A stretch of DNA of 30,397 nucleotides, taken from a virus. The notes below the pieces were generated by a model. The model was given only the letters and a program-made list of their open reading frames with translations, had not been told where the DNA came from and did no database searches. The stretch's first letter is position 1, and every line of letters begins with the position of its first letter. Made by a program: the position numbers and the translations under genes. Below are positions 11,491 through 30,397 of the stretch, in pieces. The stretch is from positions 1-30,397 of the IMG/VR virus record IMGVR_UViG_3300021225_000391, one strand, 5' to 3'.

Positions 11491-11557
11491 ATTGAGCAGC
11501 GTAAAAGCTTGGTATAACAAAACGTCCGTTGTTTTGTGTGCGTCCTCATTGCTCAAT
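11491..11557. repeat. Nested inverted repeats before HNH gene
   Basis: ATTGAGCA (11491-11498) and TGCTCAAT (11550-11557) are perfect 8-bp complements enclosing a second perfect hairpin, ACAAAAC (11517-11523) with GTTTTGT (11531-11537) around a 7-nt loop. The outer right arm ends 18 nt before the ATG at 11575. It may be an mRNA leader structure. A tRNA was considered and rejected. Confidence 0.5.
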
Positions 11558-11574
11558 ATGGGGAATATTTTACT

Positions 11575-11841
11575 ATGAAAAATTTTAAGTCAGAAAAACC
11601 TTGTATTGTATGCGGAGAATCAAAAGAAAATTACGTAACTCTTCATCACATCTATACAAGAAAAGCTTTTCCTGAGTTTGAAAGTGCGCCATGGAACCTG
11701 ATTCCGGTATGCCAACCATGCCACAATCTTTTTCACTCACTTGGAAATCAAACGATGATGAAGAAGTTTATATCAGTTAGAAATTGGATGGAGCTAAGAG
11801 GTTGGGAAGTATTTAACGGTAAGTTAATTCACAGGGACTAG
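11575..11841 (+). CDS. Small HNH endonuclease
   Basis: 88 residues from ATG 11575, with GGGGA upstream; an ATG at 11536 is in frame but lies within the leader repeat. Zinc-HNH layout: C10-C13, LHH at H24-H25, N41, then C46-x2-C49-H50 and H54. Small HNH proteins lying near terminase genes can support cos-type packaging by nicking; others are plain homing genes. Its 3' end overlaps the opposite-strand gene by 29 nt. Confidence 0.8.
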   Translation: MKNFKSEKPCIVCGESKENYVTLHHIYTRKAFPEFESAPWNLIPVCQPCHNLFHSLGNQTMMKKFISVRNWMELRGWEVFNGKLIHRD

Positions 11842-12403: not shown

Positions 12404-12604
12404 ATGGAAATAAATTCAGATCATTCCGTGATTGGGTCGTGCCAGTGCGTCTTGGAATCAATTAAGACAAGAGTTGATGGATCAATAAGCGTATCAATTT
12501 CAATAGATGCCTCTAATCAAGAAATTCTTTCAAGGCTTTTAACGAATTTTTCATTTAATAAAAGATTAATGCAGGTTGCCTTTGTAGAGGTTAACAATGG
12601 TTAG
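12404..12604 (+). CDS. Small hypothetical protein
   Basis: 66 residues. The sequence (SVIGSCQCVLESIKTRVDGSISVSISI) predicts an alpha/beta fold with no known motif. The ATG lacks a Shine-Dalgarno and lies just after a GGG-paired repeat. It overlaps the next gene by 8 nt. Similar small proteins occur in phages near terminase genes in my recollection, without a function. Confidence 0.5.
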   Translation: MEINSDHSVIGSCQCVLESIKTRVDGSISVSISIDASNQEILSRLLTNFSFNKRLMQVAFVEVNNG

Positions 12605-13274
12605 GATAGTTGGTTATGACTCTTATTACATTAATGAAAATGGGGACGTATTTAGCTCAAAAAAAAATGGTAGTTTACAAAAAATGTCCCTAAATATTAA
12701 AAAAAATGGTTACGCCAATATTAATTTATGGAATGGTAAAAAAAGGAAAACATTTAGAATTCATAGATTAGTTGCCAAGTCTTTTTTAAAAAATGACTCC
12801 AATCTTCAGTTTGTTAATCATAAAGATGGAAATAAACTCAATAATAATGTGTCCAATTTAGAATGGTGCACACCTAGTCAAAATACTATCCATGCTATTT
12901 CTACTGGTTTAAGGGCAAAAAAAACACTTAGAGGATCACTGGATGATTTTCAAATTCTGACAATTAGAACCATGTCAAATATTTCTAATGACGAAATGTC
13001 AAAAATTTACAATGTGAGCAATAGTTTAATAAGCCAAATAAGGTCTAACGCTATTTATAGCGAGCAATGTTTAATTAATGATTATAAACCAAAATATTTC
13101 AAAAGATCATCTCATACCAAGCTAACAAAAGATCAGTTTTTTAATGTTGCAATATCTATAGAAAATATAAATTTAATTGCAAAAAAATACGGTATTAGTA
13201 AGCATAGAGTTTGTGCGATTAGAAAGATTTACAAAGATGGGTATTTGTTTAATTGGGGTAAATCACATGAGTGA
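12597..13274 (+). CDS. HNH homing endonuclease with NUMOD4-like and HTH parts
   Basis: 225 residues. N-terminal NUMOD4-like segment (YYINENGDVFSSKKNG), then FRIHRLVAKSFL and the HNH core VNHKDGNKLNNNVSNLEW (H75, N79, N84), intact here. The C-terminal half has two helix-turn-helix-like repeats (about residues 112-150 and 175-215), used by such enzymes to bind long targets. The gene is visibly A-rich with many A runs, unlike the terminase genes, which fits recent insertion. It overlaps the small terminase start by 8 nt. Confidence 0.87.
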   Translation: MVRIVGYDSYYINENGDVFSSKKNGSLQKMSLNIKKNGYANINLWNGKKRKTFRIHRLVAKSFLKNDSNLQFVNHKDGNKLNNNVSNLEWCTPSQNTIHAISTGLRAKKTLRGSLDDFQILTIRTMSNISNDEMSKIYNVSNSLISQIRSNAIYSEQCLINDYKPKYFKRSSHTKLTKDQFFNVAISIENINLIAKKYGISKHRVCAIRKIYKDGYLFNWGKSHE

Positions 13275-25096: not shown

Positions 25097-26590
25097 ATGG
25101 CAAGCGTAGGACAATCAAGAGCGAGTCAATTCGCAACAAAGAAAGAAACAACTACAGGGGTTTATGCTCCACCTACAGTTGGAAGTGATTTTCTCCCTTT
25201 GCGTCCAGGTAATGAACTTAATTACGAGCCTGAAATTACAGAAAATGATGAGCTTTTAAATGATATTGGTGCAGCTAAATCAATTAATACGGGTGATGCT
25301 GTTTCTGGTTCTCACTCAGCCTATCTTCGTCACTCTGGTGTTGAAGGTCAAGAACCGCAACTTTCTGAAGTGTGGGAATCTCTTTTCGGCTCTAAATACG
25401 TTGTAGCAGTTGAGCAAGTAGCAGCCGCATCTTCGACAACTACACTTGTAAAAGTTGCTGATGGTACTCAGTTCAGAGTCGGACAAGCTCTTTTAGTAAA
25501 GAAGTCTAACGGCTATAAGATTGTTAACATTGATTCAATTACGGGAAATGATCTTACTCTTAACTTTGCTCTTGATTCTGCGCCAGTTGCAGGGAATAAA
25601 CTTGGTTTAGCTGTATGTTATATCCCTACAGGTTCAGACCATCCTTCATTCTCTACAACTAAATATCTTGGAAATGGCTATGCTATCGAAGCAAGCGCAG
25701 GAAATATCACCACTGAAGCAGCTATCACGATGGATGCCAAGGGTCTTGGTTCTGTTGAATTTTCTTTTGAAGGAACTAAGTATTTTTATAATCCTATCAC
25801 TATCACAGCTACTTCTAAATTCTTAGACGTAACTGACGACACTGGAACTTTTGCCGTATCTGTTGCTGAAAAGACTTATAATACACCTGTTGAGCTTGCT
25901 GAAACTCTTAATGCTGCTTTAAGTGCAGCGTCTACTGAAACTTATACGGTTTCTTTTTCTAGCACTACTGGTAAGTTTACAATCGCATCAGGTTCAACTG
26001 TTTTAAGCCTACTCTGGTCAACTGGTACAAACTCAGCTAATTCTATTGGTGCGAAGCTTGGATTCGTTACTACTTCAAACGATACTGGAGCAGTAACTTA
26101 TTCTTCGGATAATGCCCAGGTTTATTCTAATTCAATCACTCCTTCTTATGACTCTTCTGATGCAATCATCATTAAGGGAGCTGAATTATTTATTGGAAAT
26201 CAATCTGACAATCTTTGTATTTGCGCTCAATCTATTTCAATTACTGTTTCTAAAGAAGTTGAAAATGTTGATTGTATTTGTGAAGAGTCAGGCACACTAG
26301 AAAAAATGCCTGTTTCAAGAACTGCCTCTATGGAAATTACAGCAACACTCAAGAAGCATGATGTTTCTTTGTTGGATGCTCTTCTAAAAAATAAATCTGT
26401 TTCTGCTATGGTCAACTGCGGCCCTAAGACTGGTGGAAACTGGGTAGGCGGTAAGTGTTTTAATGCTTATATGCAATCGGCAACGGTCGGGGCTTACACA
26501 ACTACAGGCGATAGTTTCCTACAAGTTTCTATCACTCTTAATGGTTTTGTTTCAGCTACTAAGAAAGATATTTACTTTAACTTTATTTAA
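25097..26590 (+). CDS. Major tail tube protein
   Basis: 497 residues, with AAGGAG before ATG 25097. Core start: SRASQFATKKETTTGVYAPP, a typical tail tube N-terminus. Residues about 235-350 look like an inserted beta domain of the kind YNTPVELAETLNAALSAAS...YTVSFSSTTGKFTI, found in tail and fibre proteins. Codon use resembles the capsid gene, indicating high expression. It stands directly before the frameshifting chaperone gene and the tape measure gene. Confidence 0.85.
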   Translation: MASVGQSRASQFATKKETTTGVYAPPTVGSDFLPLRPGNELNYEPEITENDELLNDIGAAKSINTGDAVSGSHSAYLRHSGVEGQEPQLSEVWESLFGSKYVVAVEQVAAASSTTTLVKVADGTQFRVGQALLVKKSNGYKIVNIDSITGNDLTLNFALDSAPVAGNKLGLAVCYIPTGSDHPSFSTTKYLGNGYAIEASAGNITTEAAITMDAKGLGSVEFSFEGTKYFYNPITITATSKFLDVTDDTGTFAVSVAEKTYNTPVELAETLNAALSAASTETYTVSFSSTTGKFTIASGSTVLSLLWSTGTNSANSIGAKLGFVTTSNDTGAVTYSSDNAQVYSNSITPSYDSSDAIIIKGAELFIGNQSDNLCICAQSISITVSKEVENVDCICEESGTLEKMPVSRTASMEITATLKKHDVSLLDALLKNKSVSAMVNCGPKTGGNWVGGKCFNAYMQSATVGAYTTTGDSFLQVSITLNGFVSATKKDIYFNFI

Positions 26591-26592
26591 TT

Positions 26593-26880
26593 ATGAAAGA
26601 AAAACAAACTCCGAAGGGTGTTTTGAAATACAGAATGCCCAACGTGATAGAAGGCTTTGAGTTCTTAAGTATGGTTGAAAGCATCAGGACAGGTGCGGAC
26701 TTATTTAAGGTTAAGGGAAAGTTCATTGGGAAAATGGACGGGTTAATTGATTATTCTTCATGTGGTTATCAATCATGGAATGAATTAATCAATGACAAAG
26801 AAGCAATGTTTCACCCATTATCTGAGATAGCTCAGGAAATATTTGATGATGTTACGGCGGTGTTAGTAAAAAAGAACTAA
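26593..26880 (+). CDS. Tail assembly chaperone, short form (G-like)
   Basis: 95 residues ending at TAA 26878-26880. It lies between the tail tube and tape measure genes, the usual place of the G/GT chaperones. Its last codons GTA AAA AAG AAC hold the slippery A AAA AAG, allowing a -1 shift into the following frame. The chaperone binds the tape measure and recruits tube subunits. The ATG has no clear Shine-Dalgarno and stands 2 nt after the preceding stop, so coupling is likely. Confidence 0.8.
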   Translation: MKEKQTPKGVLKYRMPNVIEGFEFLSMVESIRTGADLFKVKGKFIGKMDGLIDYSSCGYQSWNELINDKEAMFHPLSEIAQEIFDDVTAVLVKKN

Positions 26881-27122
26881 TCCCTGATGGTGTAAACACC
26901 TTCAGGAATAAGCTAACTAGGGATGAACTTCTAGACCTATTGGATGGGGACGAGTTCAAGACCGACAAGATACTAGAGGTTGTTAAGGATGTTTTAAATT
27001 ATTCCTTTTATGAGTCATCTCTTAAAGTTGGAATAACTTACTCTCCGAAAGATTTAACATTCTCTAAAGTGTTGCTCTACTCATGGATTAAAGAGGCAAT
27101 AGGCGATGGCAGAAAGCATTGA
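26593..27122 (+). CDS. Tail assembly chaperone, frameshifted long form (GT-like)
   Basis: About 176 residues if ribosomes slip -1 at 26868-26874: 94 residues of the short form, then 82 from the next frame (ELIPDGVNTFRNKLTRDELL...GDGRKH) to 27122. The second frame is open without a break through the slip site and has no good start of its own (only TTG 26940). The tail overlaps the tape measure start by 17 nt. This matches the GT arrangement of lambda-like siphoviruses. Confidence 0.8.
26868..26874 (+). promoter_or_regulatory. Slippery heptamer for -1 frameshift
   Basis: A AAA AAG in the reading frame of the short chaperone, one of the most efficient bacterial slip sites known (as in dnaX). 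It lies two codons before the stop of the short form. Confidence 0.85.
26883..26906 (+). promoter_or_regulatory. Hairpin downstream of slip site
   Basis: CCTGATGGTG-TAAA-CACCTTCAGG: 9 pairs with one T-T mismatch and a 4-nt loop, beginning 8 nt after the heptamer. Distance and stability suit a frameshift-stimulating stem-loop. Confidence 0.75.
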
Positions 27123-28977
27123 GTTCCGACTTAAGGTCATTGAAGATAAGCTCGGAATAGCACTAGATCAAAACGAAAAGAAAGCCAAATCACTAGGTGA
27201 CACACTGTCTGTCGCCGTTGGTACATTTGCCGGACAAGCTGCAATCAAGGGATTCAGCCTTCTAGGCAATGCTATCGGATCAGTAAATGATTTTATCTTT
27301 GATTCAATCAAAGCTTCGGCCGAACAAGAAGCCGCTCTTAATAGATTGGGTCAAGCTCTTAAGCAAACGGGGGACTTCTCTCAAGGTGCATTAGATGATT
27401 TTAATGCATTCGCTTCAGAGCTTCAAAAATCATCTATATTTGCCGATGAAGTAGTCCTTGGGCAGATTGCCATTGCTAAATCATTTGGAGCAACAAACCA
27501 ACAGGCTAAGGACTTAGTACAGGCAGCGGCTAACCTTTCAGCTCAGTTAGGTGGATCACTAGAAGAAAACGTATTTAAACTAGCAAAAACGCTAAACGGT
27601 GAGGTTGCTAGGGGCTTCAAGGCAGCAATTCCAGAACTTAAAAGCTTGTCTCAAGAAGCCTTAAATGCCGGAGGTGCAATTGATATCGTTAACCAAAAAT
27701 TTGTAGGATCGGCTCAGGCTCAACTAGAAACTTATTCAGGTTCACTTACTGCCCTGACTAATGCCTTTGGTGATTTACAAGAAATTGTTGGCGATACAAT
27801 CACTCAGTCTGATTTTGTTAAGGGTGTTTTCAGCTCAATATCAGAGGCAATAAATAGCACGATAGCATCTATTCAAGAATATCAAGCTCAGCAAAAAGTT
27901 TTGAATCAAGGATTTGTTGATAATCAATCTGAGATTAACGCTCTTTCTGGTGACTATGCAGACTTAACATTAGAGATAGAAAAGCAGCAAGCTATTATAA
28001 ATAAGCAGGGCCCAAATAAAGCTCTTGTTTCTACGGCTGAAATTCAAATTGCTGAAACAAAAGTGAAGTCATTAAGTTCCGAAGCTGAAAAGCTTTTTAA
28101 AATAATTAATGTTAACCAACAAGCTATTGCATTAGAAGATAAAAAAACAGGTGGTGATCCTGCGGCTAAGGTTAGGGAAAAAACAGTTCAAGAACTTGCA
28201 GCAATAGAAGAACGAAATATTGCCATAAGAGAACTAGAAAACCAATTTGCGCTGGAGTCTAATCAATTTGAATTAGAGCAAGATATAGCAGAAAAAGAGC
28301 GTTATGGTGTAAAGACTGCGAGTGATATTGAGGCGCTTACTTCTTTTGAATTAACAAAGTCTGAATTGATGTATCAGGCAGCAATGGACAGAGCTTCAAA
28401 TCTTGCAACAATAGAAGAGCAAGAAGCGGCAAAGTCTAAAGCTATTCTAGATAAAAAGAATAGAGATCAGAAAATAGGTGCAGACAATAAAAAGAAGTTA
28501 TTGGATCAAGAAATAAAAGACCAAGAAGCATTCTTTAGTGCAGCAACTTCTCTTTCTAGCTCAAAGAGCAAAGAGCTTGCAGCCATAGGAAAAGCCGCTG
28601 CGCTTTATGAGTTATCAATTAAGACGCCTCAAGCGATAGCTTCATCATTTGCATTCGGTTCGAAAACTGGTGGTCCTGCTCTTGGTTATACATTTGGAGC
28701 AATTGCTGGAATAGCAATGGCGCAACAGGCTGCAAAAATTGCCGGAGTTTCTGGTTTTGCAAATGGCGGTATTGTTGGGGCAACTTCAGGGCCAGACAAT
28801 GCACTAGCTACTGTTAGGACAGGCGAGATGATTCTTAATGCTGAACAACAGCAAAAGTTATTCAGCCAGATAAATAATGGCGGAAATGGTGGCGGAAATA
28901 TCGTGATCCAGATAGATGGAAGAAATATCGCCTACGCTGTCAGGGATCAAATTAATCAAGGCTTCAAACTTACTTAG
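27106..28977 (+). CDS. Tape measure protein
   Basis: 623 residues. Hydrophobic stretches near residues 36-60 and 525-550, helical and coiled-coil regions (about 265-500), and the typical C-terminal pattern SGFANGGIVGATSGPDNALATV, GEMILNAEQQQKLF. At the rule of thumb of 0.15 nm per residue the tail would be about 93 nm. Directly after the chaperone, as in other siphoviruses. Confidence 0.92.
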   Translation: MAESIEFRLKVIEDKLGIALDQNEKKAKSLGDTLSVAVGTFAGQAAIKGFSLLGNAIGSVNDFIFDSIKASAEQEAALNRLGQALKQTGDFSQGALDDFNAFASELQKSSIFADEVVLGQIAIAKSFGATNQQAKDLVQAAANLSAQLGGSLEENVFKLAKTLNGEVARGFKAAIPELKSLSQEALNAGGAIDIVNQKFVGSAQAQLETYSGSLTALTNAFGDLQEIVGDTITQSDFVKGVFSSISEAINSTIASIQEYQAQQKVLNQGFVDNQSEINALSGDYADLTLEIEKQQAIINKQGPNKALVSTAEIQIAETKVKSLSSEAEKLFKIINVNQQAIALEDKKTGGDPAAKVREKTVQELAAIEERNIAIRELENQFALESNQFELEQDIAEKERYGVKTASDIEALTSFELTKSELMYQAAMDRASNLATIEEQEAAKSKAILDKKNRDQKIGADNKKKLLDQEIKDQEAFFSAATSLSSSKSKELAAIGKAAALYELSIKTPQAIASSFAFGSKTGGPALGYTFGAIAGIAMAQQAAKIAGVSGFANGGIVGATSGPDNALATVRTGEMILNAEQQQKLFSQINNGGNGGGNIVIQIDGRNIAYAVRDQINQGFKLT

Positions 28978-29746: not shown

Positions 29747-29910
29747 ACAATGAACAAGAATGGCGTAATCGTCTATTTGATGAAATAAAAGAAGTCAGGC
29801 AAGACATTAAAGAAATAAAAACCGAGATGTTTTCCCTTAAATTAAAGGTTGCAGGAATAAGCTCTATTATCGGTTCACTGATTTCTTTAATGTTTAATAA
29901 ACTATCATGA
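29743..29910 (+). CDS. Small coiled-coil membrane protein (XhlA-like)
   Basis: 55 residues. Overlaps the preceding stop and the next start (ATGA on both sides). Layout: coiled coil (about residues 8-35: LFDEIKEVRQDIKEIKTEM) then one membrane span (VAGISSIIGSLISLMF). This is the plan of haemolysin XhlA-like holin-associated proteins, though it lies in the tail region rather than beside the endolysin. It could also be a tail-tip protein that engages the membrane during DNA entry. Confidence 0.6.
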   Translation: MNNEQEWRNRLFDEIKEVRQDIKEIKTEMFSLKLKVAGISSIIGSLISLMFNKLS

Positions 29911-30244
29911 GCACCTTTGCAGAATACTCTCAAAAATTAGTAAGCGAAAAGGTTACTTTAGTAACGTGTGAAGCTGCTCAATCGGCCAAGGTGTTTACTC
30001 TATATAGTGGAACAACTTATCAAAAGAGTGTTTCATACTTTGTTTCAAATGTTAAAAACTTTGGATATAACTTAATTCCTGGGGCTGATAAAGATTCACT
30101 AGGCGATGGAGAGTTTTATTACGATGTTGAGACAAAGATTCTTTACGTTAATATGCCAGATGGTTTATCTGGTCAAAATCTAGCTATCATATACAAGCAC
30201 TTTTTTTCAACTGCACCTCTAAGATTGCCTTATGATCTTAATAC
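29907..30244 (+). CDS. Tail protein, N-terminal part, truncated by adapter
   Basis: About 112 residues of genuine phage sequence (MSTFAEYSQKLVSEKV ... PLRLPYDLNT) up to 30244; the frame then reads on through adapter and unrelated sequence to a false stop at 30380. The sequence (DGEFYYDVETKILYV) fits a tail-tip or hub N-terminus. Together with the gene that enters at base 1 it probably makes one tail hub-like protein of about 455 residues or more. The last 45 residues of the apparent product must not be annotated as protein. Confidence 0.65.
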
Positions 30245-30308
30245 AGATCGGAAGAGCACACGTCTGAACTCCAGTCACCGATGTATCTCGTACTCCGTCT
30301 TCTGCTTG
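30245..30308 (+). other. Illumina TruSeq adapter with index CGATGT
   Basis: AGATCGGAAGAGC begins at 30245 and continues through the standard adapter to 30278; the six-base index CGATGT is at 30279-30284; the P7 end (finishing TCTTCTGCTTG) runs to 30308, with two mismatches (CT for TG at 30293-30294). The translation contains RKSTRLNSSH, the known contaminant peptide of adapter reads. Confidence 0.97.
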
Positions 30309-30397
30309 AAAAAAAAAAGGGCAATATTGGGTATTGTTAAATGTACACATGGCACAAAGTTGAATGTTTGTGGTCCATAAAGTTACTAATTACGATT
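30309..30397 (+). other. Poly-A and unrelated sequence after adapter
   Basis: Ten A residues (30309-30318), as often seen after adapter read-through, then 79 nt of unknown origin with a stop in each of the six frames, unlike phage coding DNA. Probably chimeric assembly extension. Confidence 0.85.

Follow-up and report, generated by a model that had tools for sequence, protein, structure and literature searches.

A probable −1 programmed ribosomal frameshift linking predicted tail assembly chaperone genes of the lambda G/GT type, in phages whose versions match no Pfam or PHROG family

The tail module of the virus record analysed here (30,397 bases, the whole of which we call the window) raises the question of what is made from two overlapping reading frames that lie between the tail tube and tape-measure genes. 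The gene for the tail tube (major tail) protein (25097 to 26590) is followed by a 95-aa ORF, by a frame in the −1 register relative to that ORF, and by the tape-measure gene (27106 to 28977; PHROG 9483, E = 5.9e-10), whose ATG at 27106 overlaps the 3′ end of the −1 frame; these and all features described below are on the plus strand. The Pfam family Phage_tube_2 (PF18906) is matched by 9 of 20 distant relatives of the tube protein (best E = 2.9e-17), and such relatives also match PHROG 290. In lambda and most long-tailed phages an infrequent −1 shift, widely conserved in this group, yields two products, G and G-T; in lambda-type systems the tape measure is bound by G and the tube subunit is brought in by T, the proportion of the two products being important (PMC5009743, which reviews the work on lambda gpG/gpGT by Levin 1993 and by Xu, Hendrix and Duda 2004, 2013 and 2014). 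The 95-aa ORF and the −1 frame occupy the same place, between tube and tape measure, as a lambda-like G/GT pair. We conclude from the sequence comparisons below that the locus is very probably a tail assembly chaperone gene pair of this kind with a −1 programmed ribosomal frameshift.

The short ORF, for which 31 homologues were aligned, runs from ATG to TAA (26593 to 26880). Its last zero-frame codons are GTA (26866), AAA (26869), AAG (26872), AAC (26875) and TAA (26878), so that a heptamer A AAA AAG at 26868 to 26874 lies in X XXY YYZ phase and AAC is the sole sense codon between it and the stop (26878 to 26880). The second frame overlaps the end of the first without a start of its own there: it is open from 26850, directly after a stop, to a TGA at 27120 to 27122, and its first ATG, GTG or TTG is a TTG at 26940. 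A slip at the heptamer would add the residues encoded by 26874 to 27119, giving a predicted fusion of 176 aa (94 residues up to AAG and 82 from GAA at 26874). A hairpin of 9 pairs is found at 26883 to 26906, after a spacer of 8 nt (26875 to 26882). The original prediction, a programmed −1 frameshift in a tail chaperone gene, had described an in-frame A AAA AAG just before the short ORF's stop, a 9-pair hairpin 8 nt further on, a second frame open from before the slip site to 27122 with no good start, and predicted products of 95 and about 176 aa; each of these descriptions agrees with what we read. The coordinates given there, 26868 to 26906, cover the slip site and the hairpin only, and the whole unit spans 26593 to 27122. 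The ORFs of the window (approximately 9,261 codons) contain three in-frame A AAA AAG and nine in-frame A AAA AAR, and in a single genome the chance of such a heptamer within an overlap of approximately 9 codons at the end of an ORF is about 1%. Chance and sequencing error are ruled out because the arrangement recurs in 63 other distinct relatives.

These relatives come from scans of IMG/VR with alignments of the tube protein, the short ORF and the −1 ORF, which yielded more than 100 loci. With the window included, 64 distinct loci (more than 15% different around the site, with tube proteins down to approximately 32% identical) have an ORF after the tube gene that overlaps a −1-frame ORF and carries an in-phase canonical heptamer. 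Possession of a heptamer was a condition for inclusion among the 64, so that slightly fewer than 100% of all relatives have one. The heptamers are A AAA AAG (31 loci), A AAA AAA (9) and A AAA AAC (4) for the A type, G GGA AAC (10), G GGA AAG (7) and G GGA AAA (1) for the G type, and C CCA AAG and C CCA AAC (1 each) for the C type. The window's own protein family comprises 33 distinct loci, and every one of them has A AAA AAR; at distant loci the heptamer is G GGA AAx, A AAA AAC or C CCA AAx. In the closest relatives, L002 and L003, the short ORF is 82% and the −1 ORF 67% identical to that of the window; heptamer, spacing and hairpin are retained, with one U-A pair replaced by C-G. The zero-frame stop follows the heptamer directly or after one codon in 51 of the 64 loci. 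Two loci, L063 (4273-4372) and L100 (5848-5965), have it 30 and 36 codons past the heptamer, the distance in all others being 0 to 5 codons. A stop directly in front of the heptamer closes the −1 frame in 11 loci, and there the shift must occur on the heptamer itself.

Mapped on a quick tree built from the 64 tube proteins, the heptamer as a whole shows at least 23 changes and its XXX part at least 7, yet the −1 overlap and the position of the stop are retained. A few relatives have no canonical heptamer or no clear overlap: L095, L108 and L111 keep the −1 overlap without a canonical heptamer, their sites at the end of the short ORF being possible non-standard slip sites, and in L092 and L110 the arrangement is not clearly present. 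L108 has CTG GGG AAG TAG where its near relative L102 has TTG GGA AAG TAG. The tube proteins are near-identical within the sets L013/L014 and L018/L019/L021/L022 (end branches of at most 0.07) while the adjoining chaperone genes have strongly diverged, a pattern suggestive of a recombination point that separates tube gene and chaperone pair in these sets.

The −1 frame is conserved as protein. In the alignment of homologues, conservation of the predicted T protein starts at the KK encoded by the heptamer and continues onward, and comparison of the window with L002 gives dN 0.27 and dS 1.26 for this frame (dN/dS approximately 0.21), that is, the frame is under purifying selection. Profile comparison relates the short proteins of the close and the distant group (E = 8.8e-7, probability 91%) and likewise their extensions (E = 4.3e-5, probability 69%). 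An alignment with relatives had been named in the original prediction as a check, and relatives lacking both the heptamer and the second open frame as the outcome that would speak against it. The opposite was found: heptamer, −1 overlap and second protein are all conserved, the hairpin covaries (see below), and selection acts on the −1 frame.

The hairpin in the window has the sequence CCUGA-u-GGUG-uaaa-CACC-u-UCAGG, with a U-U mismatch within its 9 pairs, and is a likely stimulator of the shift. It lies, together with a second small hairpin, in a 61-nt stretch with a folding energy of −17.4 kcal/mol and a z-score of −2.8. Folding was also scored across the relatives in windows of 40 nt that cover −160 to +200 relative to the site; the mean z-score peaks in the window directly following the heptamer (−1.25, standard error 0.23; −1.59 for the loci with an A6 heptamer), the values at other positions ranging from +0.2 to −0.7. 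For covariation we used the 33 loci of the close family, aligned ungapped. In the register of the hairpin (i+j = 39), 61% of cells pair, compared with 22% to 46% in other registers, and for a 7-pair stem the value is 64.5%, against a maximum of 62.3% in 5000 shuffles of the 3′ arms, which do not account for relatedness. Compensating stem changes within the close family, for example CCT..AGG to AGA..TCT, give the forms CCT..AGG, AGA..TCT, CCG..CGG and GTT..AAG; they cross amino-acid changes, which argues for selection on the RNA. Approximately half of the close family has no stem in this register, so the hairpin is common and not universal. Rfam gave no match.

Upstream of the heptamer, GGCGGTG at 26856 to 26862 can pair with the anti-Shine-Dalgarno sequence and coincides with a peak in duplex energy, a signal that is present on average across the relatives. 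It is weak evidence for a possible upstream stimulator. We leave it as a possibility because the codons at this position encode conserved small residues, of which the signal may be a by-product.

Could the two frames be expressed without a ribosomal shift? T might be a separate gene that uses a weak or non-standard start of its own, reached by re-initiation after the stop of G, and an overlap of only approximately 10 codons makes termination-reinitiation conceivable, as does the TTG at 26940. We regard this as very improbable. Ahead of the slip site, 54 of the 64 loci lack any start codon (ATG, GTG or TTG) in the −1 frame, and 34 of the 64 also have none in the 15 codons after it; nevertheless, the protein is conserved right from the slip site. 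A start at the TTG would lose a conserved PDA segment, and a separate gene leaves the conserved heptamer and hairpin unexplained. Transcriptional slippage on the A run, which would generate a mixture of mRNAs and through it the fusion, draws on A runs of 6 to 9 in the A6 group. The run, however, is no longer than 6 A in the window, and 20 of the 44 A6 loci have just six; other relatives carry G GGA AAx or C CCA AAx, heptamers on which ribosomes slip but which are poor sites for slippage by a polymerase; as the downstream hairpin covaries as well, slippage by the polymerase appears exceedingly improbable.

The remaining alternative is that one long gene has been split by an indel that arose within the homopolymer during sequencing or assembly. 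The window does come from a metagenome, and its contig carries an artefact at the right end: positions 30245 to 30319 are what we take to be an Illumina TruSeq adapter (AGATCGGAAGAGCACACGTCTGAACTCCAGTCAC, index CGATGT, and a slightly imperfect flow-cell primer followed by poly-A). However, the same split occurs in the 63 further distinct loci, on other contigs and with different heptamers, and with the stop in the same place; the likelihood of an indel is negligible, and we consider it refuted by the relatives. The ORF at 29907 to 30380 is an artefact beyond approximately 30244, and the sequence past the adapter may be wrongly joined. Elsewhere in the window, the ORFs at 2499 to 2990, 11536 to 11841 and 12597 to 13274 resemble HNH-type endonucleases by eye, with zinc-finger or HNH-like motifs in their translations. 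Returning to the tail module, a programmed −1 frameshift in the chaperone gene is the reading supported by gene order, by conservation of heptamer, overlap and second protein, by hairpin covariation and by purifying selection.

The arrangement appears to be the known lambda type, here in phages whose predicted chaperone proteins match no described family. Pfam and PHROG scans with both proteins, for the close and the distant groups, gave no family above threshold; scattered weak matches named no consistent family and were taken as chance. Among described chaperone families the best match is that of PF23857 (Phage_TAC_19) to T, with 15 bits against a cut-off of 27. AlphaFold, run on the short protein and the extension separately, gave confident small folds (pLDDT 92.8 and 92.0, respectively). 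Foldseek on PDB and BFVD together with VIA-align found no significant structural match, which is no evidence of a new fold; the BFVD matches of the short-protein model include named tail assembly chaperones, none of the matches having E below 0.2. A sequence search of the PDB returned nothing credible. In 50,697 phage records, tblastn found nothing with the tape measure, the tube proteins of the window and L102, the short ORF or the −1 ORF, and we can therefore name no cultured relative or host. Two scans of 84,980 species genomes with tube alignments gave no true relative, this search being pattern-based and liable to miss distant ones. All relatives found are uncultivated contigs.

Compared with lambda gpG/gpGT, the gene order (tube, G, T, tape measure) is the same, and so are the position of the −1 slip near the end of G and, by inference, the status of the fusion as a minor product. 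The window differs in its heptamer (A AAA AAG), in having the downstream hairpin, in a zero-frame stop one codon past the slip, and in proteins without detectable sequence similarity to described chaperone families. G GGA AAG, carried by some of the relatives, is the heptamer of lambda itself. The frameshift in E. coli dnaX uses A AAA AAG with a downstream hairpin and an upstream Shine-Dalgarno-like stretch. The window shares the first two and possibly the third; dnaX, however, is a cellular gene in which the shift yields the shorter product, whereas here a phage gene would yield a longer one. The tail assembly chaperone frameshifts of the SEA-PHAGES collection (PRFect, PMC10885494) likewise have the slip shortly before the zero-frame stop and two overlapping chaperone ORFs, in phages that, unlike the relatives described here, are in culture.

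Judged by sequence, the locus has each testable defining feature of a lambda-like G/GT frameshift. That ribosomes shift here, at what rate, and that the products act as chaperones we infer from gene position and the lambda precedent. Most ribosomes would read G to its stop and release the 95-aa protein. In the smaller number that shift, the Lys-tRNAs on AAA and AAG would move one base backwards on A AAA AAG, aided by the hairpin and perhaps also by the upstream Shine-Dalgarno-like stretch, and these ribosomes would follow the −1 frame to 27122 to give a G-T fusion of 176 aa. On the lambda model, G would coat the tape measure, the T part would recruit tail-tube subunits, and both products would leave before the tail is completed. 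We also raise, as an unlikely extension of this mechanism, that the adjacent zero-frame stop is part of the control, with release-factor competition tuning the G:GT ratio, while around that stop the hairpin and a heptamer of A, G or C type have been rebuilt repeatedly in different lineages.

The 64 loci constitute a comparative set in which a single frameshift cassette keeps its arrangement through repeated changes of XXX type, and the set should be useful for learning which elements of a frameshift are essential. Gene callers that miss the −1 frame can be corrected at such loci, and a likely name and function can be given to two families of proteins that go unrecognised in present libraries.
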